DNA from: Collimonas sp. OK412
Lineage (GTDB): Bacteria; Pseudomonadota; Gammaproteobacteria; Burkholderiales; Burkholderiaceae_D
DNA length: 53,516 nt
NCBI RefSeq assembly: GCF_900112135.1
Contig: NZ_FOLC01000009.1
Span: 1 to 53,516, forward strand
Reading direction: 5' to 3'
Below, piece after piece: positions 402-17,232 of this stretch. Position 1 is the stretch's first letter; each line of letters starts with the position of its first letter. Both the position numbers and the translations under genes were made by a program. The notes below the pieces were generated by a model. That model was not told the origin of the DNA. It ran no database searches and saw nothing but the letters and a program-made list of their open reading frames with translations.

Positions 402-435
402 CATTTGACTGCTGTCGTGCCAGTTTTCAGATCGT

Positions 436-1989
436 TCAGGGTTTGCTGCCGAAGGGCTCCGACAGGATACCTACAAGGCTGTTCACACCATTGACGTAAT
501 TTCCCAACCGCATATTCTCATTGGCGCTGTGCTGATTGTTATCGGCATTGACCAGCGGCACAATCACGAAAGGCACTTTCAGAGCATCGACTAGCGCGCC
601 AGTCGGAACAGTGCCGCCCATCATTCTGATCTGCACCGGTTCCTTGCCGTAGGTCTTGGTCAGAGAGCGGCGCAGCCAATTACTGATTGGCGCATGCAGA
701 TCGGTACGAACGGCGCTGCTGGAAGCCGATGCCGACTCGAACTCAAGCGAAGCCAGTTTAGGATAGCGGGCGCGATCCGCATCGCTCGGTTCGCCATTGA
801 CCAGGTGAAAGCCCTGCTTCTCCGTAAATCCCTTGAGTAAAGCCGCCAAGGCCGCCGGCTCGGTTTCAGGCACGGTACGCAGATCCAGTTCGGCGACGGC
901 CATCGCCGGCACGACAGTGCGAGCCTTCTCGCCGACATCTCCAGATTGCATGCCACGCACATTGAGCGACGGATATTGCATCGCTTCCTGATAATTTTGT
1001 CCGACCTTATCTGCCACCGCAATCCCGAGGCGCTGGCGCAGCGCCGCTTCGTCGTCTGGCACTGCGCGCATGACACGCAATGAATCGGCGTCCAGCTTGA
1101 CGCTATCGTAATAACCGGGAACCGTCACTCGGCCCTCATCATCTTTCATCGATGCCAGCAAACGCGCCATCAATTGCGCCGGGTTGGCGGCATAGTTACC
1201 GTAGTGTCCACTATGGCTATCCTGCTTCGGGCCATAAACCTTCAAAGTGCCGACAACGATTCCGCGATTGCCGAATACCAATGTCGGCTGATTGCTGGGG
1301 TGCATCGGACCGTCCAGTACGACCAGCATATCGGACTTCAACAAATCCTGATTCCGCTTGATGACGCTGCCCAATGACGGCGATCCTTTTTCTTCTTCCG
1401 CGTCAAGAATGACCTTGAGGTTGATCGCCGGCGCCTTGCCGCCGGCTTTGAGTGCGTCGATCGCAGCCAGCAGCATCATGATCGGCGCCTTGTCATCCGC
1501 TGAAGCCCTGGCGAACAAACGCCACTCTGGATCGACATCCTTGGCGAACAGCTTATCCAGCGGCATGGCTTCCCACTGGCCTGCTGCATTGCGCTGTTTC
1601 AGTACTGGTGTCCATGGGCTTTTCTGTTGCCATTCAGAGGGATTGACCGGCTGTCCATCCATGTGCCCATAAAACAGTACCGTGGGAAGACCGGGAGCGC
1701 TCTTTGGAAACTCTGCAAACAGCAGCGGCTTGCCGTTATTGGGCAATTGCCTGGCATGAAAACCACGCCGCTGAAAAGCCTGTTCAAACCAGGCGGCATT
1801 GCGCTGGATATCGGCGGCTACCGCAGAGTCGTTGGGAATTGCCAGCACCTCGGCCCATTCCTTGAAACTTGCTTGCGCAGCATTCTGCACTTGTGGTGCG
1901 ATCGGCGGTTCAGCCGCATGAACAGACGGTGTCGAAAATATGGCCATGGCACAGGCGGCTAACTGGCAGTGCTGGAAGAATGTTTTCAT
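436..1989 (-). CDS. M20-family metallopeptidase, exported
   Basis: Zinc-dependent exopeptidase or amidohydrolase of the M20/M25/M40 fold. From the ATG at 1989 the protein is 517 residues with a signal peptide (MKTFF..., hydrophobic ACAMAIF, probable cut after PSVHA), so it should act in the periplasm. Metal-site motifs are visible: GHMDGQPV (His109, Asp111), ASADDKAP, DAEEEKGSPSLG and HSGHYGNYAANP. The dimerisation domain lies between these and the C-terminal NADNNQHSANENMR motif. An upstream in-frame TTG at 2016 would add nine residues before the signal peptide; neither start has a strong ribosome site, and the ATG gives the cleaner leader. It follows the small transglutaminase gene on the same strand after 49 bases, so co-transcription is possible. 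The substrate is unknown. Confidence 0.85.
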   Translation of the reverse strand: MKTFFQHCQLAACAMAIFSTPSVHAAEPPIAPQVQNAAQASFKEWAEVLAIPNDSAVAADIQRNAAWFEQAFQRRGFHARQLPNNGKPLLFAEFPKSAPGLPTVLFYGHMDGQPVNPSEWQQKSPWTPVLKQRNAAGQWEAMPLDKLFAKDVDPEWRLFARASADDKAPIMMLLAAIDALKAGGKAPAINLKVILDAEEEKGSPSLGSVIKRNQDLLKSDMLVVLDGPMHPSNQPTLVFGNRGIVVGTLKVYGPKQDSHSGHYGNYAANPAQLMARLLASMKDDEGRVTVPGYYDSVKLDADSLRVMRAVPDDEAALRQRLGIAVADKVGQNYQEAMQYPSLNVRGMQSGDVGEKARTVVPAMAVAELDLRTVPETEPAALAALLKGFTEKQGFHLVNGEPSDADRARYPKLASLEFESASASSSAVRTDLHAPISNWLRRSLTKTYGKEPVQIRMMGGTVPTGALVDALKVPFVIVPLVNADNNQHSANENMRLGNYVNGVNSLVGILSEPFGSKP

Positions 1990-2038
1990 ATGTTTTTTAT
2001 TTATAGGTGCGATCAAATGAGGTCAGAGCATGCATCGG

Positions 2039-2974
2039 TCAAACCGCGAATCCGAAGCCTGGTGCTTCATGGGCCGGCATGACGGTAACGGCAACATCCA
2101 TGGTTTGCTGGCCGCCGCCGATCAGCACGCCGCGCAAGGGTGAAATGTCGAGAAAATCGCGGCCCCAGCCGAGCGTGATATGGCTGGTGTCGGGGAAGAT
2201 GCCGTTGGTCGGATCGGCGTCTATCCAGCTGCTGGCTTGTCCATTGAATCCCGGGCAATACACCGATACCCAGGCATGCGAGGCGTCGGCGCCGATCAGG
2301 CGCGGTTGTCCGGGCGGCGGTTCGGTCAGCAGGTAGCCGCTGACATAGCGCGCCGCCAGGCCGAGGGAGCGCAGGCAGGACAGCATGAAGTGGGCAAAAT
2401 CCTGGCACACGCCGCGCCGGGTAGCGAATACCTCGGTGACCGGGGTAGAAACGGTGGTAGCCAACGGGTCGAAGGTGAATTCCTGGAAAATCCGCGTCAT
2501 CAAGGCGTCGATCCCCGCCAGCAAAGGCAGCCCGGGTGTGAACGACTCGGCTGCATACGCCAGGAATTCACGCTTGATCCGCACGTGCGCCGACTCAAAC
2601 AGGTAGCGCGTGGCTTCCAGGTCGTCAGGCAATAAAAACTGGCCGGCCTGGTATGACAGCGCGGCGCGCGCCTGCTCCCAGGACGGCGTGGCCGGCGGCA
2701 GCTGGCGCGGCGTCAGCGTGACCCAGGATTCGGCCAGGGCGCGCAGGTCGGTATGGTCGTTTTCCAGCGAAAACGATTGCAGCGGATTACCGAAGCTGTC
2801 CAGGAACATGCGCAGGTTTTGCGGCTCCGGCGTGATGCTGATGCCGTGCGAAGTGCAGGTTTGCCATGGCAGGGAACGCGGCGTCAGGCGCAGCATCTGG
2901 TGCGACAGGCGCACTGCCTGCGAATACGCGTAATGGGTGTCGTGGCGGATGTGGTAGGTATGCTGGTCCATCAT
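2039..2974 (-). CDS. transglutaminase-like protein of module A
   Basis: A 311-residue protein with a bacterial transglutaminase-like N-terminal region followed by a papain-like transglutaminase core. The catalytic triad can be read as Cys190 (RRGVCQDFAHFM), His233 (DASHAWVSVY) and Asp254 (WIDADPTNG). The ATG at 2974 overlaps the stop of the preceding ATP-grasp/alpha-E gene (ATGA), which implies translational coupling. A longer in-frame reading up to 3817 only shadows the neighbouring gene and is not coding. No signal peptide is seen, so the protein is probably cytoplasmic. Such proteins may act as peptidases or amide-forming enzymes; the substrate is not known. It is the third gene of the set that starts at 9000. 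Confidence 0.88.
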   Translation of the reverse strand: MMDQHTYHIRHDTHYAYSQAVRLSHQMLRLTPRSLPWQTCTSHGISITPEPQNLRMFLDSFGNPLQSFSLENDHTDLRALAESWVTLTPRQLPPATPSWEQARAALSYQAGQFLLPDDLEATRYLFESAHVRIKREFLAYAAESFTPGLPLLAGIDALMTRIFQEFTFDPLATTVSTPVTEVFATRRGVCQDFAHFMLSCLRSLGLAARYVSGYLLTEPPPGQPRLIGADASHAWVSVYCPGFNGQASSWIDADPTNGIFPDTSHITLGWGRDFLDISPLRGVLIGGGQQTMDVAVTVMPAHEAPGFGFAV

Positions 2975-5517
2975 GACACTCCCTGGCTGACCGGCGCATT
3001 CAAGGGCGTAAAGAAATGCCGCGCCAGCTCGTCGGACAGCGAAAAGGCGCCACCGATGGCGTCGCGCATCAGCTGCACCAGGCGGGCGTGGGCGTCGGCC
3101 ACGAACAAGGAATCGTGGCCGAGGTCCTGCAATTCGAATTCGCGCAGCAAGGCCGACAGGTGCGCCGGCGTGTCCATGTTCAGGGTGCCGAGCTGTTCCC
3201 CGATATCGCTTAGATAGCGCTCCAGCATATGGAACTGGAATGCAATGCCGTGCGGGTTGCTGACGTCGAATATCAGCAGATGCAGCACCGGCAGCCATTC
3301 CGGCGCGCGCCGGTAGCGTACGCGGTAGGTGACCACGCTGTTGGCCGATTCCAGCAGCCACGGCAGCGTCCGGTTCTGGCGCTCCGCCGGCAACAGCAGG
3401 AACTGGCTGAACAAGGCCGCCAGGTGCGTCATGCGTTCTATATGCCGGCCCAGCATCAGGAAATGCCAGCCTTCGTCGCGCGTCATGTCGTCCAGCGCGT
3501 GCCCGGCCAGGCCGACGCAAGCCTGGATGACATTGTTGAGCATGTACAGCGCGGCGGCGGGCGTCACGCCGCCGGGGCCGCTGCTGTCGGTCGTCAGGCC
3601 CGGCATGCGGTTGAGCGCCTGCCAGTTGTCCAGCGAAAGATGCTCGCGCACCTGGTAGCCGCAATGATGCAGGTGGCGCAGGTTGCCGGCAATGCCGACG
3701 CTGGCGGTGGGATCGGCGATGGCGGCAATCAGCGCCTGCTGCAGGGCGGCGACGGTCGGCCGCGCCGTCGCTGATGCGGCCGGCAGGGCAATCCCGAGGC
3801 CGCGGCAGATTTCGCACAGCTGGTAGAAGGTTTCACGGGCTTCGCCCTGCAGGTCGGTGCTGCGCTGCAAGGTGGCGCGCAGCAGATGCGCCAGGTTGTC
3901 GCAGCGCTCGGCGTAACGCCCCATCCAGAACAGGTTTTCGCCGGCGTGCGATGAAATGTCGACCGTGCTGCGGATGAAATCCAGCGTGCGCTGCCGGCCG
4001 TCGCCATCCTCCAGCGGCGCCACCGCCGGCGCGACCGCATCGCCGGCCTCGGCGCGCACCGGGCTCAGCACCCAGACATCCTTGCTGGCGCCGCCCTGCT
4101 GCATCGACACCACATCCTTGCGCTGGCGCGGCGCGACCCGCGTCAAGCCGCCGGGCATCACATGGTAGCTGCCGTCGGCGGCGGCGACCACGAATACCCG
4201 CAAGCTGACCGCACGGCTCATCAGGCGGTATTCGCCGCTGCGCGACAATACCGGCGCCTGCGACAGACGCACCCATTCCTGCGCCACATAAGCATGCGGC
4301 TGGGCCAGCAGGCTCTCCACCAGGCGCTGGCGCGATTGCGCATTCAGGCTATGGCCATAGACCGGCTGCATGCGCATCGAAGGGAACGCCGGCATGATCA
4401 CCAGCTGCTCCAGATTGGCCAAGGTGTAATCGAGCGCCGGTTTTTCGCCGCACCACCAGGACGCCACCGCCGGCAGCGCCAGCGGCTGGCCCAGCAAACG
4501 CTGGCAGATGGCCGGCAGGAAACCATGCAAGGCGCCCGACTCCAGCACGCCGCTGCCGAGCGAATTGGCGATCAGCACATTGCCCAGGCGCGCCGCCTGC
4601 ACCAGCCCGGGAATGCCGAGCGCGGAATCGGCGCGCAATTCGAGCGGATCGCAATAATCGTCGTCCAGCCGCCGCAGGATCGCATGGACGCGCCGCAAGC
4701 CGCTCAGGGTCTTGAGGTACACCATGTCGCCGCGCACCATCAGGTCGGCCCCTTCGACCAGCGGGAAACCCAGGGTATGCGCCAGGAACGCGTGTTCGGA
4801 ATAGGTTTCGTTATACGGCCCCGGCGTCAGCAGCACCACCAGCGGCGTTTCGCCGGCGGCCGGCGCCAGTGCGTTCAGGCTGTCGTGCAGGGTATGGAAA
4901 AACTTCAGCAGCGATTGCACATGCATGTCGCGCACCGTCTCCGGCAATGCGCGCGACATGATCTGCCGGTTCTGCAAGGCGTAGCCGGCGCCGGACGGTC
5001 CCTGGGTGCGGTCCGACATGACCCACCAGTGGCCATCCGGCGAACGCGCCAGGTCGATCGCGTACAGGTGCAGGTGTATGCCGGCCGGCGGTTCGATGCC
5101 GCGGCAAGGCCACAGGTAGCCATGCTGGCCGAATACCAGCGCCGGCGGCAGCAGTCCTTCGGACAGCAGCGTTTGCGGGCCGTACAGGTCGGCCAGCACG
5201 GCATTGAGCAGGCGCGCACGCTGTACCACCGCAGCGGACAAGACCTGCCATTCGTCGGCGGAAATGATTTGCGGCAACAGATCCAGTTCCCAGGGCCGGT
5301 TGGCGCCCTGCGGATCGGCGTATACGTTGTAGGTCACGCCGTCGGCGGCAATCGCTTCGCGCACCTCGCGCGCACGGCGCCGCAGGATCTCCGGCGACAG
5401 CCCTTCAAGCTGGTCGATCAAGGTCCGCCAGTGCGGCCGCAGGCGGCCGCCCGCTTCAAGCATTTCGTCGTAACGATCCGCCTCTGCGGGATAACTCTCG
5501 AGTAAACGCCGGTACAT
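2971..5517 (-). CDS. circularly permuted ATP-grasp / alpha-E fusion protein
   Basis: An 848-residue fusion. Residues about 1-480 are the circularly permuted type 2 ATP-grasp domain (DUF404/DUF407). Residues about 500-840 are the helical alpha-E domain (DUF403; STVDISSHAGENLFWMGRYA marks its start). The same two domains are separate genes at 12093 and 13510. The usual EDNxRxPSG stretch reads SDRTQGPSG here. The glycine-rich K-x-x-HGAGGYGM segment of the standalone copy is replaced by VIMPAFPSM, so nucleotide binding may differ or be lost; I believe fused homologues share this. The family is proposed to form amide bonds, but its substrate is unknown. A hairpin terminator precedes the gene, and its stop overlaps the next start. 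Confidence 0.88.
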   Translation of the reverse strand: MYRRLLESYPAEADRYDEMLEAGGRLRPHWRTLIDQLEGLSPEILRRRAREVREAIAADGVTYNVYADPQGANRPWELDLLPQIISADEWQVLSAAVVQRARLLNAVLADLYGPQTLLSEGLLPPALVFGQHGYLWPCRGIEPPAGIHLHLYAIDLARSPDGHWWVMSDRTQGPSGAGYALQNRQIMSRALPETVRDMHVQSLLKFFHTLHDSLNALAPAAGETPLVVLLTPGPYNETYSEHAFLAHTLGFPLVEGADLMVRGDMVYLKTLSGLRRVHAILRRLDDDYCDPLELRADSALGIPGLVQAARLGNVLIANSLGSGVLESGALHGFLPAICQRLLGQPLALPAVASWWCGEKPALDYTLANLEQLVIMPAFPSMRMQPVYGHSLNAQSRQRLVESLLAQPHAYVAQEWVRLSQAPVLSRSGEYRLMSRAVSLRVFVVAAADGSYHVMPGGLTRVAPRQRKDVVSMQQGGASKDVWVLSPVRAEAGDAVAPAVAPLEDGDGRQRTLDFIRSTVDISSHAGENLFWMGRYAERCDNLAHLLRATLQRSTDLQGEARETFYQLCEICRGLGIALPAASATARPTVAALQQALIAAIADPTASVGIAGNLRHLHHCGYQVREHLSLDNWQALNRMPGLTTDSSGPGGVTPAAALYMLNNVIQACVGLAGHALDDMTRDEGWHFLMLGRHIERMTHLAALFSQFLLLPAERQNRTLPWLLESANSVVTYRVRYRRAPEWLPVLHLLIFDVSNPHGIAFQFHMLERYLSDIGEQLGTLNMDTPAHLSALLREFELQDLGHDSLFVADAHARLVQLMRDAIGGAFSLSDELARHFFTPLNAPVSQGVS

Positions 5518-5575
5518 AGTTGATCGCTTGCATCACCTGGAACAATTTAAATGCAAACCCTGCCGACAGGGTGCT

Positions 5576-5616
5576 GAAAAACTGCAGCGCAAACCGGAAA
5601 TAGTTGCGCTGCAGTT
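5576..5616 (-). terminator. intercistronic hairpin terminator inside module A
   Basis: A 13-base perfect stem, AACTGCAGCGCAA (5580-5592) with TTGCGCTGCAGTT (5604-5616) around an 11-base loop. Read on the minus strand it is followed by TTTTTC. It sits between the large transglutaminase gene and the ATP-grasp fusion, so it probably lowers or conditions downstream transcription. A second small hairpin (CCCTG-CCGA-CAGGG, 5558-5571) follows. Confidence 0.7.
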
Positions 5617-5643
5617 CCTTTACACCGCGGTTGCCGAGCTTGA

Positions 5644-8600
5644 TCAGAAGTGACGTAAGTCTAACGTAAATGGGAACTCGATGGATGCTATCGGTTGCGT
5701 TACCTGCATCGGTCCCGGGGTGTGGTTGAGGCGGAAATAACGCCCCAGGCGCCGGCTTTCGGCCTCGAAAGCGTTGACCGGGAAGGTCTCGTAGCTGCGC
5801 CCGCCGGGATGCACCACGTGATACTGGCAACCGCCCAGGCTGCGGCCGTTCCAGGTATCGACCAGGTCGAAGGTCAGCGGCGAATCGATGCCGATGGTCG
5901 GATGCAGGGCCGAAGGCGGCTGCCAGGCGCGATAACGCACGCCGCTGACGAATTCGCCGACGCGTCCGGTCGGCTGCAGCGGCACCGGCACGCCATTGCA
6001 GGTCAGCACATAACGATCCGGCGCCATGCCGTTCACCTTCACCTGCAAGCGCTCCAGCGAGGAATCGACGTAACGGGCGTTGCCGCCGGAACGGCTTTCC
6101 TCGCCCAGCACATGCCAGGGTTCCAGCGCGGTGCGCAATTCGAGCCCGATGCCGTTGATCGCAAAATCGCCGATTTTCGGGAACCTGAACTCGAAATGCG
6201 GCGCGAACCATTCCGCTTTGAGCGCGTAGCCGGCCTGCTGCATGTCGTCCATCACATCGCAGAAATCCTGCCAGATGAAGTGCGGCAGCAGGAAACGGTC
6301 GTGCAGTTCGGTGCCCCAGCGCACCAGGCGCCGCGGCTTGTACGGCGTCTTCCAGAAGCGCGCCACCAGCGCCCGCAACAGCAGCTGCTGGGTCAGGCTC
6401 ATGCGCGCATGCGGCGGCATTTCAAACGCGCGCAATTCCAGCAGGCCGAGGCGGCCGGTGCTGCTATCGGGCGAATACAGCTTGTCGATGCAGAATTCGG
6501 CGCGATGGGTATTGCCGGTGACGTCGATCAACAGGTTGCGCAGCAGCCGGTCCACCAGCCACGGTGCACATTCGCCGCCGGCAAGCTGGCGCTCCATTTC
6601 GGTAAACGCCAGCTCCAGTTCGACCACCGCGTCGTTGCGCGCTTCGTCGACGCGCGGCGCCTGCGAAGTCGGGCCGATGAACATGCCGGAGAACAGGTAA
6701 GACAGCGCCGGATGGTTGTGCCAGTAGCTGATCAGGCTGCGCAGCAGGTCGGGCCGGCGCAGGAACGGCGAATCGCCGGTGGTGGCGCCGCCCAGCACCA
6801 GGTGGTTGCCGCCGCCGGTGCCGGAATGATGGCCGTCGAGCATGAATTTCTCGGTGGTGAGCCGGGTCTCGCGCGCCACGTCGTACAGGTAGGTGGTGTT
6901 GCTGACCAGTTCGCCCCAGCTGTGCATGGGCTGGATATTCACTTCGATCACGCCGGGATCGGGCGTGACGCTGAACTTGCCCACGCGCGGATCATGCGGC
7001 GGTTCATAACCTTCCATCAGCAAGGGCTGCTCCAGGGCTTGCGCCGTCGCTTCGATCGCCGCCACCAGTTCCAGGTAATCCTCGAGCCGCGCCAGCGGCG
7101 GCATGAACAGGTACAGCACGCCTTGCCGCACTTCCGCGCACAAGGCGGTGCGGGCAATCTGGTCGGCCGATTCGAACGGCGCCGGCGCCGCTTGCGCTTC
7201 GCTGGTGAAAGCCGCGCTGTAAGAGGTTGAACTGTACTTCGGCGCATCTGCCGCGGTTGCCTTGCCAGTGGCGGCCGCCGGCGTCGCCAGTTGCTGGCGG
7301 ATTTGCTGTGTTACCGGCAGCGGCTGGAATTCCTGGGTCGGGTCCTGCTGGTGCACAAAAGGATAATCGGCTTTCTTGACCCACGGTTGCGAATCGAGCG
7401 GCAAGCGGTAGCCCAGGGGAGAATCGCCCGGCAGCAGGTAGCAGTGTTCGCCGCGCAAATACCAGCTGCTGCTTTGCCAGCCGCTTTCATCATCGGAGCG
7501 GACCAGCGGTAAAACGTAGCCGGCGACTTTGCGCAAGCCTTGCGAAAAGACCCGCGCCAGCCGCGCCCGTTCCTGCTTGTCATCCAGCCGCGCATCGGAG
7601 GGATCGACATTGATCGCCAGGCGGCGTTCGCGCCACAGGTAGTAATAGATATCTTCATAGGCGGCGAACACATACTGCCGGTCCAGCGTCAGGCGCGCTG
7701 CAACTCCCAGCAAAAAACGTTCGGCGATAGTGTCGTCGGTGGCTTGCTTCTTTGTTTCGTCGGCAATCAAGGCCGGCGTCGACCAGATCGGCTCGCCGTC
7801 GCGGCGCCAGTAGCAGTTGAGCGCCCAGCGCGGCAGCTGCTCGCCGGGATACCATTTGCCCTGGCCGAAATGCGGCAAGCCTTGTGCCGCATACTGCTGG
7901 CGCAGCCGGTGGTAGAGCTCGGCTGCCAGCGGCTTCTTGGTAGGCCCCATGGCGGCCGTGTTCCATTCCTCGCCTTCGGGATCGTCGAGCGCGACGAAAG
8001 TCGGCTCGCCGCCCATCGTCAGGCGCACGTCGAGTTCGTCCAGGTCGTCGTCGATGGCATGGCCCAGCTCTTCGATTTCCTCCCACTGCTGCTCGCTGTA
8101 TGGCTTGGTGACGCGCGGCGATTCCCAGATGCGGCGCACGCTCATCGCATGCTCGAATTCGACTTCGCATGGCTCCACCATGCCGCTCACCGGCGCCGCC
8201 GACGACGGTTCCGGCGTGCAGGACAGCGGGATGTGTCCTTCGCCGGCGAACAGGCCGGAAGTAGGATCAAGGCCGATCCAGCCGGCGCCCGGCAGATAGA
8301 CCTCGCACCAGGCGTGCAGGTCGGTGAAATCGGTTTGCGGGCCGGACGGGCCGTCCAGCGATTTCTGGTCGGCCGTCAGCTGGATCAGGTAACCGGAGAC
8401 GAAACGCGCCGCCAGCCCGAGATAGCGCAGTATCTGCACCAGCAGCCACGACGAATCGCGGCAGGAGCCGGAACCGAGGCTCAAGGTCTGCTCCGGCGTC
8501 TGCACGCCCGGTTCCATGCGGATGGTGTAGCTGATCAGTTGCGCCAGCTGCTGGTTCAGGCTGACCAGGAAATCCTCGGTGCGGATTCTTTCGCGCGGCA

Positions 8601-9000
8601 CCTGGTCCAGGAATTTTTGCAGCAGAGGCGTCAGCGGCAGCTTCTTGCGGTACGGTTCCAGCTCGTTCTGCAGCTCAGGCGCGTAGGAAAACGGCACTTT
8701 CTCGGCATACGGCTCAAGAAAGAAATCGAAGGGGTTGAGCACCGACATTTCCGCCACCAGGTCGACCTCGATGCGGAATTCGCTGGCCTTTTCCGGAAAC
8801 ACCAGGCGCGCCAGGTAATTGGCTTGCGGGTCCTGCTGCCAGTTGATGAAATGCGGCTCCGGCAGTATCCGCAGCGAATAGCTGAGGATGCGGGTGCGGC
8901 AATGCGGCGCCGGCCGCAGGCGGATGATCTGCGGGCCCAGGCTGATCGGACGCTCATAACGATAGGTGGTGAGATGATTGAGTGCTACGTGAATTGACAT
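5644..9000 (-). CDS. large transglutaminase / DUF2126 protein
   Basis: An 1118-residue protein. Residues 1-90 are the bacterial transglutaminase N-terminal region. The core covers about 150-260, with a likely triad Cys180 ([11 protein letters not shown]), His229 ([10 protein letters not shown]) and Asp245 (WIGLDPTSG). The rest, from about 330, is the long DUF2126 region typical of this family. The start is the ATG at 9000, preceded by GAGGA six bases upstream; a TTG eighteen bases earlier is less likely. It heads module A and lies 82 bases after phaZ on the same strand. Function is inferred only from the family: a cytoplasmic amide-bond enzyme working with the ATP-grasp/alpha-E protein. A terminator-like hairpin follows its stop. 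Confidence 0.9.
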
Positions 9001-9066
9001 GGATATCCTCTGCGACAATCAATAATCATTCAGTGCATGAACTTCTGCAGCTGCCACAAAACCAGA

Positions 9067-9096
9067 ATTACTGGTACTGATATTACTGGTACTGAT
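9067..9096. repeat. 15-base perfect tandem duplication over the phaZ stop
   Basis: ATTACTGGTACTGAT occurs twice head to tail (9067-9081 and 9082-9096). On the minus strand it encodes the last residues Gln-Tyr-Gln and the TAA stop, so a second in-frame TAA stands 15 bases beyond the first. It looks like a recent slippage or duplication event. Confidence 0.9.
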
Positions 9097-10315
9097 GATG
9101 GCTGTGGATGAAATCACGCAAGCGCGGATAGATTTCATTGTCCCAGCGGCGGCCGTTGAAGACGCCGTAATGGCCGACGCCGGTCTGCACATGGTGCGAT
9201 TTCATGTACGGCCGTATGCCGCTGCACATGTCTTGGGCCGCCACGGTCTGGCCTACTGCGCAAATGTCATCCTTTTCTCCCTCCACGGTAAACAATGCGG
9301 TACGCCGGATTACCGCCGGCTCTATCGTACGCCCTAATGCCTGCATTTCACCAAGCGGCAATGCATGATCCTGGAACACGCTTTGCACGGTTTCCAGGTA
9401 AAACTCCGCGGCCAGGTCCGACATGGCGAAATATTCGGCGTAAAACGTCTTGATGGCGTTGGCTTTTTCGTCTTCGCCATCGACCAGGTAGTTGTACAGG
9501 TTCTGGAAAGCCTTGAGGTGACGTTCCAGGTTCATGCTCATGAATGCATTGAGCTGCAGGAAACCTGGGTAAACCTGGCGCTGGCTGCCGGCGAATCGGC
9601 CGGGCACGGTACTCACCAGGTTTTTCTCAAACCAGTCGATCGGCTTGCTTTTGGCCAGCTGGTTGACCGCGGTCGGATTGATGCGGGTGTCGATCGGGCC
9701 CGCCATCAGGGTCATGCTGGCAGGTTGCGCTGGGTGCTTGTCGGCCGCCATCAGCGACACCGCCACCAGCGCCGCCACGGTCGGCTGGCAGACTGCCACT
9801 ACGTGCGCGCCGGGGCCGATCTTCTCGATGAAACGGATCAGGTGGGCGACATATTCGTCGAAACCGAAACGGCCGTCGCTGAGGGCCACGTCGCGGGCGT
9901 TGTGCCAGTCGGTGATATACACGTCATGATCGCGCAGCAGGGTATTTACGGTGCCGCGCAGCAAAGTGGCGAAATGCCCTGACATGGGCGCAACCAGGAG
10001 GATGCGCGGCTGCGCGGCCTTGGTTTCCTTGCGGAAATGCAACAAAGTGCAGAACGGCGTCTGGTCGGCGATCTCTTCGTGCACCGAAACCGTGCAGCCG
10101 CTCTCTTCCACGCTGTCGATCCCGAATGCGGGGCGCTGATGCGTCAAGCGGGTGCATGAAAACACTTCGCAGGCGGCAGCCAGCTTGCGCAGCGCCAGGC
10201 TGTCGGGCCAGCCGGGAAAACGGTAGCCCAACATCGGTGCGGCAGCGCCAGCCCATGCACGCATCGGATCGCTGAAATCCGCATAGCCCTGATATGCCTG
10301 GTAAATTTTAGTCAT
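9083..10315 (-). CDS. phaZ: intracellular polyhydroxyalkanoate depolymerase
   Basis: A 410-residue alpha/beta hydrolase of the intracellular PHB depolymerase family, which releases 3-hydroxybutyrate units from storage granules. The nucleophile is a cysteine in a lipase-box-like motif, VCQPT (Cys176), as in the Ralstonia-type enzymes. A C-terminal histidine lies in TGVGHYGVFNGRRW (His382). The ATG at 10315 gives the usual family length. It is upstream of module A on the same strand; the 82-base gap shows no clear terminator, so read-through into the transglutaminase genes is possible. The 3-prime end carries a 15-base tandem duplication that includes the stop codon. The presence of this gene suggests PHB storage. 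Confidence 0.9.
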   Translation of the reverse strand: MTKIYQAYQGYADFSDPMRAWAGAAAPMLGYRFPGWPDSLALRKLAAACEVFSCTRLTHQRPAFGIDSVEESGCTVSVHEEIADQTPFCTLLHFRKETKAAQPRILLVAPMSGHFATLLRGTVNTLLRDHDVYITDWHNARDVALSDGRFGFDEYVAHLIRFIEKIGPGAHVVAVCQPTVAALVAVSLMAADKHPAQPASMTLMAGPIDTRINPTAVNQLAKSKPIDWFEKNLVSTVPGRFAGSQRQVYPGFLQLNAFMSMNLERHLKAFQNLYNYLVDGEDEKANAIKTFYAEYFAMSDLAAEFYLETVQSVFQDHALPLGEMQALGRTIEPAVIRRTALFTVEGEKDDICAVGQTVAAQDMCSGIRPYMKSHHVQTGVGHYGVFNGRRWDNEIYPRLRDFIHSHHQYQ

Positions 10316-10420
10316 GGGACTACCCTGTTATTGGAATGCCGGCAAACATGCTAGGTGCAATATCCATGCCCATATCTCTGGCACGGCCTTTGCTCAGTAG
10401 ACATCAAACGGTTTGCCAAT

Positions 10421-10687
10421 TAGGGCCTGTTGATATTCAATTTGGGAGTGCGAACGCGCGGCAGGCGTTACAGGCCTAGGCGCGACGACGCGACGTAGTG
10501 GTGCTACGGCAAGGAGGAGCAACAACGGCATGTGACGCCTGCAGCCGTTCCCGGAGGGTTCAAACCAAAACGTGCGCTGGCCGCGTTGCATGGCTTGCTG
10601 GGGCACCAGCCCCAGCTACGCCACGCGCCTTGCCAGCACACGTTTTGGTTTGAACGCATCTCCCAAATTGAATGTCAACAGGCCCTA
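10421..10687. mobile_element. MITE-like element with 28-base terminal inverted repeats
   Basis: The ends TAGGGCCTGTTGAtATTCAATTTGGGAG (written here by position: 10421-10448) and 10660-10687 are reverse complements with one mismatch. Inside are a 23-base inverted repeat (10558-10580 with 10633-10655, one mismatch), a GCTGGGGC/GCCCCAGC hairpin (10597-10616), a CGTAG/CTACG hairpin (10493-10507), and GCAGGCGTTAC matched by GTGACGCCTGC. No open frame carries protein features. The outermost TA on each side could be a TA target duplication. The element fills most of the gap between phaZ and the GST gene. The flanks 10316-10420 and 10688-10721 show only the GST ribosome site. Confidence 0.75.
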
Positions 10688-10721
10688 AAACGCTTTCGAT
10701 CCAATACGGAAGAATATTGCC

Positions 10722-11375
10722 ATGCCTAAGACCACCCTGAGCATCACCAGTAAAAACTATTCGTCGTGGTCCTTGCGCGGCTGGCTGCTGACCCGGTTCT
10801 CCGGCCTGGAATTCCAGGAGAACCTGATCTCGCCGGACGACCCGGATGCGCGCGCCGAAATCCTGCTGCTGTCGTCGTCGATCCTGGTGCCCTGTCTATA
10901 CCATGGCAACATCGTGGTGTGGGATACCCTGGCCATCGGCGAGTACCTGCACGAAATCCGCCCCAAGGCCGGGCTGCTGCCGGCGGACCGCGCCGCGCGC
11001 GCGCACTGCCGTTCGATCTGCGGCGAAATGCATTCCGGCTTCAGCGCCCTGCGCTCGGCGCTGCCGATGAACATCAAGGCGCATTTCCCCGACTTCAAGG
11101 TGTGGTCGCGCGCCGAAGCCGACATCAAGCGCATCACCACCATCTGGAAACAGTGCCTGGCAACCTATGGCGGCCCGTTCCTGTTCGGCGAGCGCTCGAT
11201 GGCCGACGCCATGTATGCGCCGGTGGCGACGCGTTTTCTGACGTACGATGTAAAACTGGATTCCGTCTGCAGCGCCTATTGCAAGCGCATCATGGCGCTG
11301 CCGGAAATGCAGGAATGGATCAAGGCGGCCAAGCTGGAGCCGGACGATATCAATGAACTGGACGTGGAATTCTGA
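10722..11375 (+). CDS. glutathione S-transferase-like protein
   Basis: A 217-residue protein of the GST fold. Residues 5-80 are the thioredoxin-like domain; the SKNYSSWSLRGWL stretch provides serines near the position of the usual catalytic Ser/Cys, and SSSILVPCLYHGNIVVWDTL includes the cis-proline and the Asp-Thr pair that binds the glutamyl end of glutathione. The helical C-terminal domain covers about 90-215 and contains FLFGERSMADAMYAPVATRF, the N-capping/Asp motif of the family. A GGAAGA site precedes the ATG. The substrate is unknown. It lies just after the MITE-like element and 35 bases before the cupin gene, with which it is probably co-transcribed. Confidence 0.85.
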   Translation: MPKTTLSITSKNYSSWSLRGWLLTRFSGLEFQENLISPDDPDARAEILLLSSSILVPCLYHGNIVVWDTLAIGEYLHEIRPKAGLLPADRAARAHCRSICGEMHSGFSALRSALPMNIKAHFPDFKVWSRAEADIKRITTIWKQCLATYGGPFLFGERSMADAMYAPVATRFLTYDVKLDSVCSAYCKRIMALPEMQEWIKAAKLEPDDINELDVEF

Positions 11376-11410
11376 AAACGATTTCCGATGCCAAGGAAAG
11401 GATAGCTGCA

Positions 11411-11854
11411 ATGGACACCAAGACTGAAGCGGGACCCAAGACTGTGTTCTCCCATGTGCGCGAAGGCGACACCGCATTCGAATCAGGCGGCCTGCGCGAT
11501 TTTTTCCTGTACCGCGACCTCGGCATCGCCGCCGCTACCGGCGGCCAGGTAGTGGCGCACCTGGTGAAGGCCAACATGGCGCCCGAAATCGGCACCGGCT
11601 GGCACCGGCATGAAGCCAATTTCCACATCGTCTACATGCTCAAAGGCTGGGCGCGCTTCATGTACGAGGACAAGGAAACGCTGGTCAAGGCCGGCGACTG
11701 CGTGCACCAGCGCCCGGGCATCGTGCATTTTTTATTCGACTACTCGGAAGACATGGAGTATCTTGAAATCGTTAGCCCGGCGGCATTCACCTCGATCGAC
11801 ATGCCCGCACCGTGCGCCGTCCCGGCGCCGGCGCCATGGAGCAAGGCGGGTTGA
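11411..11854 (+). CDS. single-domain cupin protein
   Basis: A 147-residue protein with both cupin motifs. Motif 1 is GTGWHRHEANFHIVYMLKGW (His-x-His with a downstream His in place of Glu) and motif 2 is GDCVHQRPGIVHFLFD. It should bind one metal ion in a small beta-barrel. The C-terminal twenty residues are rich in proline and alanine. No enzymatic assignment is possible from sequence. It follows the GST-like gene closely on the same strand, which hints at a shared stress or small-molecule role. No terminator is evident after it. Confidence 0.8.
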   Translation: MDTKTEAGPKTVFSHVREGDTAFESGGLRDFFLYRDLGIAAATGGQVVAHLVKANMAPEIGTGWHRHEANFHIVYMLKGWARFMYEDKETLVKAGDCVHQRPGIVHFLFDYSEDMEYLEIVSPAAFTSIDMPAPCAVPAPAPWSKAG

Positions 11855-11958
11855 GCGGCATTTCACATGGCTGTTTTTTGCAATCCAAACATGACGGAGG
11901 ACGCCACCCAGATTAAGCAAAATTTGCTAAGAGCTGTCCTGGCAATACTGAAAATAAA

Positions 11959-12016
11959 GCCTATTCAACAAGCAAGACCGCATGTTAGTCTTTAATTAAG
12001 ACAATGCTTAATAGGC
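11959..12016. promoter_or_regulatory. nested dyad upstream of module B
   Basis: GCCTATT (11959-11965) plus AAGCA (11970-11974) mirrors TGCTT (12005-12009) plus AATAGGC (12010-12016). Inside lies GTCTT-TAATT-AAGAC (11988-12002), nearly a perfect palindrome. The fold sits 77 bases before the ATP-grasp start and has no T-run, so an operator or leader structure is more likely than a terminator. No known binding protein is recognised. Confidence 0.4.
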
Positions 12017-12092
12017 AACCAGCAGCTTGCTACGGGCACGCTTCTTGATAGCTACTTGATAGTTTCCGATCAAACCACAGCAAAGCAAGATC

Positions 12093-13508
12093 ATGGCAAA
12101 TTTTTTCGATGAAATGTACTCCGATGGCAATTCGTCGGTGCGCCCGCACTATAACGAATTTTCCAATTGGCTCAACGCTCAGACTGCTGAAACGATCGCC
12201 CGCAAACGGGCCGAAGCCGACCTGATTTTCCGCCGGGTCGGGATTACTTTCGCCGTGTACGGCAACGACGCCGGCACCGAACGCCTGATCCCCTTCGACA
12301 TCATTCCGCGTATCATCCACGCGCAGGAATGGGCGGTCCTGGAAGCCGGCCTGATCCAGCGCGTCAAGGCGCTCAACATGTTCATCCACGACATCTACCA
12401 CGACCAGAACATCGTCAAGGCAGGCGTGATCCCGGCTGAACAGATTTTCCGCAACGCCCAGTACCGGCCCGAAATGCAAGGCATCTCGGTGGCTTCGGAC
12501 ATCTATGCGCATATTGCCGGCGTCGATATCGTGCGTGCCGGCCAGGGCGAGTTCTACGTGCTGGAAGATAACCTGCGGGTGCCGTCGGGCGTGTCCTACA
12601 TGCTGGAAAACCGCAAGATGATGATGCGGCTGTTCCCTGAGCTGTTCCTGCGCCACAAGATCGCGCCGGTCGACCATTATCCCGACATGCTGCTCGATAA
12701 CCTGCGCTCGGTGGCGCCGGTCGGCGTGACCGATCCGACGGTGGTGGTGATGACGCCGGGGATGTACAACTCGGCTTACTTCGAGCACGCTTTCCTGGCC
12801 CAGCAGATGGGCGTGGAGCTGGTCGAAGGCCAGGACCTGTTCGTCAACGACAACCACGTCTACATGCGCACCACGCGCGGCCCCAAGCGGGTCGACGTGA
12901 TCTACCGCCGGATCGACGACGACTACCTCGATCCGCTCGCCTTCCGCCCCGATTCGTCGCTGGGCGTGCCGGGCTTGCTGTCGGTGTACCGCGCCGGCAA
13001 CGTAACGCTGGCCAACGCCATCGGCACCGGCGTCGCCGACGACAAGTCGGTCTATCCGTTCGTGCCGGACATGGTCCAGTTCTACCTGTCGGAGAAGCCG
13101 ATCCTGAACAATGTCCCGACCTTCCAGTGCCGCAAGAAAGAAGACTTGCAGTACACGCTGGACAACCTGAAGGACCTGGTGGTCAAGGAAGTGCATGGCG
13201 CCGGCGGCTACGGCATGCTGGTCGGCCCGGCCTCGACCAAGCAGGAAATCGAGGATTTCCGGCAGCGCGTGATCGCCAAGCCGGACGGGTATATCTCGCA
13301 GCCGACCCTGGCCTTGTCGGCTTGCCCGACCTATGTCGAATCCGGCATCGCACCGCGCCACCTTGACCTGCGGCCGTTCGTATTGTCCGGCAAGAATGTC
13401 TCCCTGGTGCGCGGCGGCCTGACCCGCGTCGCCCTCAAGGAAGGTTCGCTGGTGGTCAACTCGTCCCAAGGCGGCGGCACCAAAGACACCTGGATTCTGG
13501 AGAAATAA
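12093..13508 (+). CDS. standalone circularly permuted type 2 ATP-grasp protein
   Basis: A 471-residue member of the DUF404/DUF407 ATP-grasp family, a predicted peptide or amide ligase of the cytoplasm. The substrate and nucleotide residues look intact: VLEDNLRVPSGVSYMLENR (about 150-170), RRIDDDYLDPL, and the glycine-rich LVVKEVHGAGGYGMLVGP (about 366-383), followed by RHLDLRPFV and VRGGLTRVAL. The last two segments match the fused copy at 2971-5517, but the glycine-rich loop does not, so this is the likelier active enzyme. It starts module B; the alpha-E gene begins one base after its stop. Its substrate is unknown. Confidence 0.9.
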   Translation: MANFFDEMYSDGNSSVRPHYNEFSNWLNAQTAETIARKRAEADLIFRRVGITFAVYGNDAGTERLIPFDIIPRIIHAQEWAVLEAGLIQRVKALNMFIHDIYHDQNIVKAGVIPAEQIFRNAQYRPEMQGISVASDIYAHIAGVDIVRAGQGEFYVLEDNLRVPSGVSYMLENRKMMMRLFPELFLRHKIAPVDHYPDMLLDNLRSVAPVGVTDPTVVVMTPGMYNSAYFEHAFLAQQMGVELVEGQDLFVNDNHVYMRTTRGPKRVDVIYRRIDDDYLDPLAFRPDSSLGVPGLLSVYRAGNVTLANAIGTGVADDKSVYPFVPDMVQFYLSEKPILNNVPTFQCRKKEDLQYTLDNLKDLVVKEVHGAGGYGMLVGPASTKQEIEDFRQRVIAKPDGYISQPTLALSACPTYVESGIAPRHLDLRPFVLSGKNVSLVRGGLTRVALKEGSLVVNSSQGGGTKDTWILEK

Positions 13509-13509
13509 C

Positions 13510-14505
13510 ATGCTCAGTCGCACCGCCGATCATTTGTTCTGGATGTCCCGCTACACCGAGCGGGCAGAAAACACCGCACGCATGCTCGACGTGCACGTGC
13601 AAACGGGGCTGCTGCCGCAGTCGATCGAAGACGTTGAAAAAGGCTGGCGCGCAGTGCTCGGCATTTCCGAGCTGACCCACGCCTACGACAAGAAATACAG
13701 CGTCGTCACGCAAAAAGACGTGATCGATTTCATGGTGCGCGATCCCAGCAATTCTTCTTCGATCGCTTCCTGCCTGAAGCAGGCTCGCGAGAATGCGCGC
13801 GCGGTGCGCGGCGCGCTGACTACCGAAGCATGGGAAATCCAGAACGCCACCTGGATCAAGATGCAGGGTTACCTGCAGACCAACGCGCTGGAGCAAAACC
13901 CGAGCGAGTTTTTCGAATGGGTCAAGCACCGCTCTCACCTGTCGCGCGGCGTCACCATCGGCACCATGCTCAAGGATGAAGCATTCCACTTCATCCGCCT
14001 CGGCACCTTCCTGGAACGCGCCGACAATACGGCCCGCATCATCGACGTCAAATTCCACGGCGCCAAGGAAGGCACCTACACCAAGAACCTGCAAACCGGC
14101 CAGCGCCAAAGCCAGGAGCAGGATTCCATTGCCGATCCGCAAATCGACTTCTACTACTGGGCGGCGATCCTGCGTTCGGTATCCGGTTTTGAAATCTACC
14201 GCAAGGTGTACCGCGACGTGATTACGCCGGCGCGCGTGGCTGACTTGCTGATCTTGCGGCCAGACATGCCGCGTTCGCTGCTGTCTTGCATGGAACAGGT
14301 GGTCGGCAACCTCAAGCATGTGCACAACGACACCTCCTCCGATACCGAGCGGTTCGCGGGGAAACTGCATGCCGACCTGAAATTCAGCAATCTCGAGGAG
14401 ATCCTCGACGCCGGCCTGCATGACTACCTGACCCGCTTTTTCGAACGGATCTTCGAGCTTGGGAATCGCATCAGCCGCGATTTCCTGGTGCCCCTCAACA
14501 CCTGA
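13510..14505 (+). CDS. alpha-E domain protein
   Basis: A 331-residue, mostly helical protein of the alpha-E (DUF403) family. It starts MLSRTADHLFWMSRYTERAE, and conserved acidic and arginine residues follow in FHFIRLGTFLERADNTARI. Conserved Glu and Arg residues suggest a catalytic or binding helical bundle, but no reaction is established. The same domain is fused to ATP-grasp in module A, which supports a physical partnership with the ATP-grasp protein encoded one base upstream. Its stop shares a base with the next gene's ATG (TGATG), so translation of the three genes is probably coupled. Confidence 0.9.
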   Translation: MLSRTADHLFWMSRYTERAENTARMLDVHVQTGLLPQSIEDVEKGWRAVLGISELTHAYDKKYSVVTQKDVIDFMVRDPSNSSSIASCLKQARENARAVRGALTTEAWEIQNATWIKMQGYLQTNALEQNPSEFFEWVKHRSHLSRGVTIGTMLKDEAFHFIRLGTFLERADNTARIIDVKFHGAKEGTYTKNLQTGQRQSQEQDSIADPQIDFYYWAAILRSVSGFEIYRKVYRDVITPARVADLLILRPDMPRSLLSCMEQVVGNLKHVHNDTSSDTERFAGKLHADLKFSNLEEILDAGLHDYLTRFFERIFELGNRISRDFLVPLNT

Positions 14506-15326
14506 TGCCTGACATGCTACTGACCATCCGGCATGAAACGGTTTATCACTACACCGCGGCGCTCACCTACACCATCCAGCAGCTGCGCCTGTCGCCGCGG
14601 GCGGAAGCGCAGCAGCGCACGCTGGCCTGGCATATCAGCAGTTCAGGCAACCGCCATCCGTACATCGATGCGTTCGGCAACCTGAGCCATACGCTGACGG
14701 TCACCAAACCGCACCACGAGGTGCGCATCATCGCCGAGGGCACGGTAGCGGTGACGCCGCTGCAGCAGGGCCGGCTGCCGCAGGCGGGAGAATTTTCGCC
14801 ACTGGTGTTTACCGTGCCGACCCAGCTGACGCAAGCCACGCCGGCAGTCATGGAGTTCGCCCACCGGAACTTGCGCAGCGGCGCCGACAGCAGGCAGCTG
14901 CTGGCGCTGGCGCAGGCGATCTGCGCGGCGGTGGCCTACCAGAGCGGCTCGACCGCGGTAACCAGCAGCGCCGACGATGCGCTGGCGCTGGGCCAGGGCG
15001 TGTGCCAGGACCATGCGCACCTGTTCCTGGCTTGCTGCCATATAGCCGGCATCCCGGCGCGTTATGTATCGGGCTATATCGATCCCGGCAACACCAGCCA
15101 CGCCGAAAGCCATGCCTGGGTCGACGTCTGGGTGCAGGAAAGCGGCTTCGCCGGCTGGATCAGCATCGATGTCACCCATGCATGTTTTGCCAGCGATAAT
15201 TATTGCAGGCTGGCAATTGGACGCGACTACGACTCCGCCGCACCGGTGCGCGGCGTGCGGCGCGGCGGCGGCGAAGAAACCCTGACTGTGCAAGTCAATG
15301 TTTCTGCTTTACCATCCGATCAATAA
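14505..15326 (+). CDS. transglutaminase-like protein of module B
   Basis: A 273-residue protein with the bacterial transglutaminase N-terminal region (1-90) and a core with Cys167 (LGQGVCQDHAHLF), His203 (AESHAWVDVW) and Asp222 (ISIDVTHACF). The Asp motif differs from the D-P-T seen in both module A transglutaminases, which marks a separate subfamily. The ATG at 14505 overlaps the alpha-E stop by one base; a second in-frame ATG nine bases on is an alternative. The role is inferred: peptide-bond cleavage or transfer on the product of the ATP-grasp/alpha-E pair. A 114-base gap with a dyad separates it from the Anbu gene. Confidence 0.9.
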   Translation: MPDMLLTIRHETVYHYTAALTYTIQQLRLSPRAEAQQRTLAWHISSSGNRHPYIDAFGNLSHTLTVTKPHHEVRIIAEGTVAVTPLQQGRLPQAGEFSPLVFTVPTQLTQATPAVMEFAHRNLRSGADSRQLLALAQAICAAVAYQSGSTAVTSSADDALALGQGVCQDHAHLFLACCHIAGIPARYVSGYIDPGNTSHAESHAWVDVWVQESGFAGWISIDVTHACFASDNYCRLAIGRDYDSAAPVRGVRRGGGEETLTVQVNVSALPSDQ

Positions 15327-15341
15327 GCGGCTTACATCAAC

Positions 15342-15371
15342 TTACAATAAATTGTCGTATTATTAATGTAA
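15342..15371. promoter_or_regulatory. dyad upstream of the Anbu gene
   Basis: TTACAATAA (15342-15350) and TTAATGTAA (15363-15371) form an inverted repeat with one mismatch and a 12-base spacer, in an AT-rich stretch about 70 bases before the Anbu ATG. This would suit a dimeric regulator near a promoter internal to module B. It is a pattern observation only. Confidence 0.35.
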
Positions 15372-15440
15372 AACTCAATCTGATCGAGAAACCGCCTTGG
15401 CTTCCTGTAAAATCGCCACTTTGTATTTTTCTTCGACACC

Positions 15441-16313
15441 ATGACTTACTGCGTTGCCCTCCGCCTGGAAACCGGCCTGGTTTTTCTCTCCGACTCGCGC
15501 ACCAATGCGGGCGTGGACCATGTCGCCACGTCGCGCAAGATGAGCGTGTTCGAAAATCCCGGCGAGCGCCTGATGGTATTCATGACCGCCGGCAACCTGT
15601 CGATCTCGCAGTCGATCAAGGAAATCATCGGCGAGCGCGTGAATGCCGCCGGCAAGACCATCTGGACCGTGGACTCGATGTACGAAGCGGCGCAGATCGT
15701 CGGCGAAGTAATCCGTTCGGTGTATGAACGGGAAGCGCAGGCGCTGGAAAAATTCGGCATCGATTTCAACGTCAGCATCATTTTCGGCGGCCAGATCAAG
15801 GGCGAGCGCTGCCGCCTGTTCCAGATTTATTCGGCCGGCAATTTCATTGAATCGCACAATGAAAACACGTATTTCCAGATCGGCGAATCGAAATACGGCA
15901 AGCCGATACTCGACCGTGTCATCACGCCAGCCTCGTCGCTGGACGAAGCGGCAAAATGCGCGCTGATTTCGATGGACTCGACCCTGCGCTCGAATGTCTC
16001 GGTTGGCTTGCCGCTGGACATGCTGCTGTATGAAAAAGATACGCTGGCGGTCACGCGCTTTGTCACCATCGGCGAGAAGAACCAGTACTTCCAGATGATC
16101 CGCGAAAACTGGGGCAAGCAGCTCAAGAGCGTATTCGACGGCATCGCCGACCCGGTCTGGAACGCCAATCCTGAAACCACCTCGAACGTGCTGTCGGCGC
16201 AAGGCTCGCGCAGCGAACCGCTGGTGGTCACGCCGCCGCAAGGCATCGGCAACGACAGCCAGCCGGCGCCGCTGCAAACCTTGGCGCAAGGCGGCAACGG
16301 CCGGCAACACTAA
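15441..16313 (+). CDS. Anbu-type proteasome-like peptidase
   Basis: A 290-residue member of the Anbu (ancestral beta subunit) branch of Ntn-hydrolases, related to proteasome beta subunits and HslV. The start MTYCVALRLETGLVFLSDSR puts the catalytic threonine directly after the initiator Met, with no propeptide. Counting from that Thr, Asp17 and Lys32 (TSRKM) correspond to the proteasome Asp17/Lys33 pair. The core ends near residue 245; a tail of some 45 residues rich in Ser, Pro, Gln and Gly follows. No AAA ATPase partner gene lies nearby. The gene is last in module B, an arrangement known from several bacteria, which suggests it works with the ATP-grasp, alpha-E and transglutaminase proteins. 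Confidence 0.92.
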   Translation: MTYCVALRLETGLVFLSDSRTNAGVDHVATSRKMSVFENPGERLMVFMTAGNLSISQSIKEIIGERVNAAGKTIWTVDSMYEAAQIVGEVIRSVYEREAQALEKFGIDFNVSIIFGGQIKGERCRLFQIYSAGNFIESHNENTYFQIGESKYGKPILDRVITPASSLDEAAKCALISMDSTLRSNVSVGLPLDMLLYEKDTLAVTRFVTIGEKNQYFQMIRENWGKQLKSVFDGIADPVWNANPETTSNVLSAQGSRSEPLVVTPPQGIGNDSQPAPLQTLAQGGNGRQH

Positions 16314-16326
16314 GTCTGATCACGAA

Positions 16327-16358
16327 AAAAACGGCGCCCGATTCTCGGCGCCGTTTTC
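16327..16358. terminator. bidirectional terminator between Anbu and panB genes
   Basis: AAAACGGCGCC (16328-16338) pairs with GGCGCCGTTTT (16347-16357) around an eight-base loop. A-rich sequence before and T-rich sequence after the stem allow it to end both converging transcripts. Confidence 0.88.
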
Positions 16359-16399
16359 AATTCAGGCGCCGGCCCGGCGCCCGCCGTGGCCGGAGGCTC

Positions 16400-17230: not shown

Positions 17231-17232
17231 TG

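Follow-up and report, generated by a model that had tools for sequence, protein, structure and literature searches.

A conserved and apparently inactive ATP-grasp/alpha-E fusion paired with an Anbu gene set around a putative nitrogen-type control region in Collimonas sp. OK412

The region analyzed here is a stretch of 53,516 nucleotides from Collimonas sp. OK412 (NCBI RefSeq assembly GCF_900112135.1, contig NZ_FOLC01000009.1, positions 1 to 53,516 of the forward strand), hereafter the window, which carries two divergent gene modules of the circularly permuted ATP-grasp (CP-ATP-grasp), alpha-E and transglutaminase (TG) families (Table 1). Module A encodes a TG-DUF2126 protein, a fused ATP-grasp/alpha-E protein and a stand-alone TG, and module B encodes separate ATP-grasp, alpha-E, TG and proteasome-like Anbu proteins. 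All the genes named in an earlier note on this DNA were recovered in their places by open reading frame and Pfam annotation. A search of the 5.46-Mb genome located two CP-ATP-grasp and two alpha-E genes, all of them in modules A and B, and no others; Anbu is confined to module B, as had been proposed. The note was right that both modules contain the ATP-grasp, alpha-E and TG families, but in module A the first two are fused and the ATP-grasp half lacks most catalytic residues; moreover, it had overlooked DUF2126, an omission that changes the reading of the locus.

Table 1. Features of the two modules and of the region between them (positions of the window).
Feature	Position	Strand	Remarks
TG (Bact_transglu_N + Transglut_core), module A, stand-alone	2039..2971	-	Pfam; start overlaps stop of fused gene
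Fused pseudo-ATP-grasp (CP_ATPgrasp_2, putative) + alpha-E, module A	2971..5517	-	One 848-aa frame; Pfam
TG + DUF2126 (putative amidoligase), module A	5644..9000	-	1118 aa from ATG at 9000; PF09899
phaZ, polyhydroxybutyrate (PHB) depolymerase	9083..10315	-	PF06850; same strand as module A, 82 bp before it
Weak sigma-54-like site toward phaZ/module A	10356..10371	-	2 mismatches
Sigma-54 (-24/-12) consensus toward glutathione S-transferase (GST), cupin and module B	10379..10394	+	Perfect match
Element like a miniature inverted-repeat transposable element (MITE)	10420..10688	none	29-bp terminal inverted repeats; between strong sigma-54 site and GST
GST-like gene	10722..11375	+	Pfam; same strand as module B
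Cupin gene	11411..11854	+	Pfam
ATP-grasp, module B	12093..13508	+	Pfam; catalytic residues present
Alpha-E, module B	13510..14505	+	Pfam
TG, module B	14505..15326	+	Pfam; triad intact
Anbu, proteasome-like Ntn-hydrolase	15441..16313	+	PDB matches; Thr1, Asp17, Lys32

The genes of module B lie on one strand in the order ATP-grasp, alpha-E, TG and Anbu (12093-16313), separated by gaps of 1, -1 and 114 bp. The ATP-grasp protein is a close homologue of PDB entry 3n6x (E 1.4e-233), and D145, E158, N160, K318, K365 and the GGYG loop are all present. In the PDB, the Anbu protein had matches to five Anbu/peptidase chains, the best with E 8.7e-89, and its three residues listed in Table 1 agree with those named in the abstract of PMC6376114, i.e., Thr1, Asp17 and Lys32(33). 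The Cys-His-Asp triad is intact in the three TG domains of the window, in 99 of 99 DUF2126-linked TGs and in all 41 stand-alone TGs of module A (window included), and the Cys is kept in 8 of the 10 TGs that follow a B-type alpha-E. The DUF2126 domain (1358 bits) spans three quarters of its protein and represents, by family, a putative amidoligase that may be glutamine-synthetase-like; in the model of TG-DUF2126 (pLDDT 70), the TG half resembles 3isr, and glutamine synthetase was no more than a weak fold match (E 0.17 and above).

The fused protein of module A scores 513 bits against CP_ATPgrasp_2, and its predicted structure (pLDDT 84) has the fold of the family of glutathione synthetase, glutathionylspermidine synthetase/amidase (GspS) and trypanothione synthetase (TryS), with 3n6x as the best PDB match (TMt 0.89) and further matches to 2hgs, 2io7 and 2vob. 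The significant PDB matches of this search were only to ATP-grasp relatives, none being obtained for the alpha-E half. According to a passage of PMC3581523, TryS binds Mg2+ through Asp330, Glu344 and Asn346, and Lys513 and Lys548 contact the ATP phosphates. By motif spacing and fold, and not by superposition, the three ligands correspond to D145, E158 and N160 of module B, and K318 and K365 tentatively to the phosphate lysines. None of the 118 fused sequences has E158, N160 or K318, and 103 of the 104 unfused ones keep all three; the sole exception resembles an A-type copy truncated at the end of its contig. Fused copies do not conserve the GGYG loop; in the window's own copy it is absent, SDR stands for EDN, G for K318 and M for K365, and the Asp at D145 is kept. 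The replacement residues are themselves conserved, namely R for N160 (114/118), Q for R162 (107/118) and the domain's G118 (117/118). The same loss pattern was found in replicons of Azospirillum, Shinella and Sinorhizobium, with Glu in place of D145 in Shinella and in one Sinorhizobium replicon, in Halomonas where readable, and in six further fused copies. The alpha-E half of the fused protein also lacks several polar residues that unfused alpha-E proteins keep.

Because its ATP-grasp half is devoid of most catalytic residues, i.e., most Mg2+/ATP ligands, module A is not a complete second set, and the description of the locus as two complete modules is not supported. The survey's fused copies all fall on one side of a branch (45/45, SH-aLRT 100), and the unfused copies of all layouts are intermingled; in a larger tree (118 fused and 104 unfused sequences) the fused label needs two changes and not one, probably owing to the cut-off copy of locus L184. 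A recent tandem duplication of module B as the origin of module A was rejected, the fused type being one well-separated group. Compared with a same-genus genome, dN/dS is 0.022 for the ATP-grasp half of module A and 0.023 for the ATP-grasp of module B, and module A's half is under purifying selection. Random decay of this half is unlikely, given the dN/dS values and the conserved replacement residues. Thus, the module A protein looks like a conserved pseudoenzyme, a catalytically dead twin of the module B enzyme. We found no report of an inactive, pseudo or degenerate ATP-grasp of this kind in a literature search that did not extend to Iyer et al. 2009; that study may already have noted the dead copy.

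We surveyed 300 genomes from the window's order, its own among them, for the occurrence of the system; the occurrence and linkage counts ignore kinship, and copy numbers are numbers of profile matches, which in G153 and G224 are fragments. CP-ATP-grasp was present in 171 of the 300 genomes, DUF2126 in 107 and Anbu in 157. All 107 DUF2126 genomes have a CP-ATP-grasp match, as do 153 of the 157 Anbu genomes; Anbu is present in 94 of the 107 and missing in 13, all of which have at least two CP-ATP-grasp matches (fragments in two). A fused copy was identified in 53 survey genomes, and an unfused-type copy was found in every one of them. These 53 are the genomes of 46 fetched stretches plus G282, G181, G269, G120, G211, G249 and G100 (the last by frame length alone); extra copies in G059, G110, G111, G272 and G289 were left untyped, and the B-type copy of G135, with an unusually long open frame, was judged by score. 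The co-occurrence count covers survey genomes, and the named and plasmid loci stand outside it.

Loci were fetched from 100 of the other 106 DUF2126 genomes (G050, G094, G153, G216, G224 and G292 being left out); the proteins of the window served as seeds for the profiles with which these loci and the window were annotated. The loci show two main layouts. In type I, a single operon runs ATP-grasp, alpha-E, Anbu and TG-DUF2126; this exact order is found in 26 loci, and 21 of the 26 genomes have a single CP-ATP-grasp match. In type II, TG-DUF2126 is accompanied by the fused ATP-grasp/alpha-E gene, after which a TG gene comes in most cases, and an unfused B-type copy lies nearby or elsewhere. Among 80 named loci, taken as the best-scoring of at least 592 stretches, type II also occurs in Pseudomonas, Marinobacter, Serratia, Rhodocyclales, Azospirillaceae and metagenome-assembled genomes (MAGs) of Verrucomicrobiota. 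A Herbaspirillum MAG (Oxalobacteraceae) contains the nearest named relative of the window's ATP-grasp copies.

A fused copy is present together with DUF2126 in 46 stretches, the window's included. Of these, 27 (15 families) have the unfused copy no more than 10 kb away, 3 have it at a distance of 10-30 kb and 5 at 50-300 kb; in the other 11 it is on a different contig. In this count, the apparent unfused copy of G183 is taken as a fragment of a broken A-type gene (its B-type copy is on a different contig), and the B-type copy of G177 is truncated at the stretch end. The pairing of A and B is real, recurrent and meaningful, and the comparison across the order did not find the modules unlinked in nearly all relatives. 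The DUF2126 operons of the 101 loci contain the fused gene only in 38 cases, Anbu only in 40, both in 5 and neither in 18, so that an operon usually has either the fused copy or Anbu, and seldom the two together. Loci with and without the fused copy alternate on the DUF2126 tree, with 10 changes, 9 of them forced by the starred branches. Two Anbu genes near one DUF2126 set were observed in L103, L105, L122, L127 and L133.

These layouts bear on the meaning of the pair. The earlier note had suggested two products, or synthesis in one module and turnover in the other. This is not supported, because 44 of the 55 stretches that have no fused copy come from genomes that encode DUF2126, Anbu and just one ATP-grasp, Anbu lying in the DUF2126 operon in 35 of these 44, and the unfused-type copy in all 53 genomes with a fused one speaks in the same direction.

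The region between phaZ and GST contains two divergent sigma-54-like sites (Table 1). The GST-side site matches the consensus perfectly in the window, and so do its counterparts in G006, G164 and Herbaspirillum; the phaZ-side site also has counterparts in these three genomes, with one mismatch in G164 and Herbaspirillum. The sequence around the divergent sites differs, by eye, between the genera of the four genomes. Homologues of phaZ are found near the system in 8 loci (one being a partial frame), of GST in 7 and of cupin in 7, each count including the window. The note had treated phaZ, GST and cupin as a separate island; they are better described as the promoter-proximal genes of both arms, and an insertion island is unlikely given their recurrence in other families and the kept divergent sites. 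The MITE-like element is, as supposed, a real repeat, with five other near-full-length copies (81-93%) and two partial ones in the same genome, and it stands between the strong sigma-54 site and GST in G006 too. A scan of positions 1-20000 against Rfam at the gathering threshold gave zero matches.

At the level of the family, sigma-54 core sites (GG/GC core, at most two mismatches; background from dinucleotide shuffles) precede 61 of 94 B-type operon heads (43/63 genera), compared with 6.8 in shuffles, at a median of 45 bp before the start, and 63 of 110 DUF2126 heads (40/75 genera), compared with 7.1, at a median of 51 bp. The excess appears alike in survey loci (B heads 41/61; DUF2126 heads 25/47) and named loci (20/33; 38/63). 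The controls were 2/100 for alpha-E starts (6.0 expected), 5/70 for internal DUF2126 starts (3.2), 9/119 for fused ATP-grasp/alpha-E starts (6.6) and 6/46 for internal Anbu starts (2.6). On the antisense strand, 8 of the 94 B heads have a site.

Published expression data agree in part with nitrogen as the signal. In the B. cenocepacia H111 ntrC mutant, the fold changes given in PMC5491218 are -8.2 for DUF404/DUF407, -9.4 for DUF403, -9.4 for a TG, -6.0 for a large TG, which we take to be TG-DUF2126, and -6.6 for PHB depolymerase; PHB depolymerase and GST are listed there as sigma-54/NtrC-dependent. In wild-type P. putida KT2440, Table 2 of PMC7801951 gives an 11- to 15-fold increase of PP_2686-2688 under nitrogen limitation; PP_2686 is a TG according to this source, and PP_2687 and PP_2688 are presumably the alpha-E and ATP-grasp genes, judging from the operon. 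Nitrogen control is thus supported in two organisms, in which the orthology of these genes to those of the window is inferred from gene names and not from sequence comparison. A metagenome study ties the same domains to urea metabolism (PMC3597751).

From these data we propose, at about even chances, that modules A and B form one nitrogen-starvation locus, and not two, which is read outward from a shared control region and includes a pseudoenzyme adaptor. Nitrogen shortage would activate both arms, sigma-54 RNA polymerase, probably with NtrC, starting between phaZ and GST; the leftward arm would carry phaZ and module A, and the rightward arm GST, cupin and module B, presumably as one transcript per arm. 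The ATP-grasp of module B would be the working amide ligase, possibly with an acyl-phosphate mechanism like that of GspS, an enzyme whose amidase half cuts an amide bond; the TG and Anbu of module B would cut amide bonds. TG-DUF2126 would combine a cysteine amidase with a second ligase, probably of the glutamine-synthetase type, adding a second ligation and cutting step and depending on the B set. The pseudo-ATP-grasp/alpha-E protein may have a non-catalytic role as an adaptor or regulator, binding the substrate or product of the B set and passing it to TG-DUF2126. A more specific and more tentative form of this proposal is that the dead fusion, in Pseudomonadota and in the Verrucomicrobiota MAGs, is an obligate adaptor between the live ATP-grasp and the glutamine-synthetase-like TG-DUF2126, in the place that Anbu has in the one-operon form, with both arms and phaZ/GST co-switched by sigma-54; we regard this as possible and somewhat doubtful.

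Several observations weigh against the single-locus proposal. In the window, the head of module B has only a two-mismatch site with GA for the -12 GC, which fails the core test, no core site was found before module A, the phaZ-side site has its two mismatches, and no NtrC palindrome with at most two mismatches to the consensus was found in the control region. Over the family, separate Anbu heads have a site in 0 of 16 cases, and antisense sites before DUF2126 heads (21/110) exceed the shuffles. In P. putida, PP_2686-2688 are still up 14- to 20-fold in the rpoN mutant, and the proteasome-like PP_2685 changes 1.12-fold in the wild type (Table 2 of PMC7801951). The sequence and one organism thus speak for sigma-54 dependence, and one data set contradicts it; in the same table, urea-transporter genes assigned to NtrB/NtrC likewise stay induced in the rpoN mutant. 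In G249 (L279), the fused protein and a TG are divergent from an unfused B-type ATP-grasp and alpha-E, and a search of this genome found no DUF2126 or Anbu, so that the partner of the fused protein may be the ATP-grasp of module B. Finally, the residue mapping described above, the faster change of the module A half against two more distant relatives (dN/dS 0.24-0.25, compared with 0.13-0.15 for the module B ATP-grasp), yet still constrained, and the retention of D145 in 114, S165 in 110 and K365 in 91 of the 118 fused copies are on the same side.

This retention leads to the alternative that survives best, namely that the ATP-grasp of module A is alive with a changed chemistry, in that it arranges a nucleotide or metal differently or uses a different acyl donor, the conserved DRTQxPSG-like motif being the new active site. 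Because most fused copies retain one of the three Mg2+ ligands that were mapped, the pseudoenzyme proposal is weakened and this alternative strengthened, and the strongly conserved replacement residues and the purifying selection also agree with it. However, the other two mapped ligands, K318 and the glycine-rich loop are lost, and the window's copy also lacks K365, so that we consider a changed chemistry rather unlikely.

Somewhat less probable still, in our opinion, is that A and B are two independent pathways with different products, adjacent through shared ancestry and common regulation. It would be consistent with the 16 of 46 loci in which A-type and B-type copies are on other contigs or 50-300 kb apart, with the 64 of 171 CP-ATP-grasp genomes that have no DUF2126 and with the fact that module A encodes a TG and a DUF2126 of its own, in which key residues are conserved. 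Nevertheless, no fused copy was identified in the survey without an unfused-type copy, the ATP-grasp of module A lacks most catalytic residues, and DUF2126 and Anbu share an operon in most of the fetched single-ATP-grasp genomes. That island and pairing are just an order-level synteny of functionally unlinked genes is quite improbable: the ComEC, RelA/SpoT-like or RidA genes nearby in other lineages could suggest an old neighborhood of mixed functions, but phaZ, GST, ATP-grasp, alpha-E and TG genes are NtrC/sigma-54-dependent in the B. cenocepacia data (PMC5491218), and four genomes share the divergent sigma-54-like sites of the phaZ-GST interval although, by eye, their surrounding sequence differs between the genera.

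The neighborhood of the system varies among relatives. A gene encoding an M20-family peptidase (436-2016) lies on the same strand directly downstream of module A, and a homologue occupies the same place in G006 (L069). In L203, L213, L219, L224, L235 and other Comamonadaceae, the divergent B and A sets lie 2.5-3.1 kb apart, and a ComEC-like gene occupies the interval in place of phaZ/GST/cupin. In Paraburkholderia, Caballeronia, Achromobacter and Marinobacter (L199, L201, L202, L206, L207, L220, L221, L244, L185 and L188), the surroundings of the DUF2126 set include a gene for a zinc-ribbon putative metallopeptidase (Peptidase_Mx). The ComEC-like and Peptidase_Mx labels come from Pfam on one member each (L128 and L099, respectively). 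A RidA/YjgF-like gene is near the system in 16 loci (L090, L097, L108, L136, L212, L219 and others), the named ones being mostly Comamonadaceae/Sphaerotilaceae. Many of the neighbor clusters were antisense shadow frames, and only those with Pfam matches were used. No substrate gene was found among the recurrent neighbors (ComEC, RelA/SpoT, RidA, Peptidase_Mx and a 413-aa family that has no Pfam match).

Iyer and co-workers reportedly predicted in 2009 a peptide-tagging system composed of circularly permuted ATP-grasp and glutamine-synthetase-like ligases, an Ntn-hydrolase and an alpha-helical domain. The families are the same as here, and the type I operon fits that system; the fused copy of the window, in contrast, looks dead. 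GspS and TryS combine a ligase with a papain-fold cysteine amidase. They belong to the same ATP-grasp fold class as the window protein (PDB 2io7 and 2vob), but in the window ligase and amidase are separate proteins, and Anbu, alpha-E and DUF2126 are added. With the Anbu operon, as outlined in passages of PMC6376114 and PMC5666114 that cite Valas and Bourne 2008 and Iyer et al. 2009, module B shares the four genes, their order and the expected catalytic residues; unlike that operon, the window's set has as its neighbor a DUF2126 module whose ATP-grasp is apparently a pseudoenzyme, and the two modules flank a common control region. The same domain content responds to NtrC or nitrogen limitation in the B. 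cenocepacia H111 NtrC/sigma-54 regulon (PMC5491218) and in P. putida KT2440 (PMC7801951), whereas in the window the genes sit together around one control region.

In summary, the locus represents a variant form of a system that is known but still unexplained; it has a conserved paralogue that is apparently dead, and a control region of the nitrogen type separates its two arms. The Anbu/ATP-grasp/alpha-E/TG system has been proposed for peptide tagging or synthesis, and the literature found, as far as its excerpts go, names no substrate. A published test of the Yersinia four-gene operon (PMC6376114) detected neither peptidase activity nor a specific interaction between the proteins, only the release of phosphate from ATP. 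That test did not contain DUF2126, which the system often includes in the relatives of the window. The present analysis offers a growth condition, i.e., nitrogen limitation, a compact one-operon set with a single ATP-grasp and a specific, testable claim, that of the dead ATP-grasp copy.

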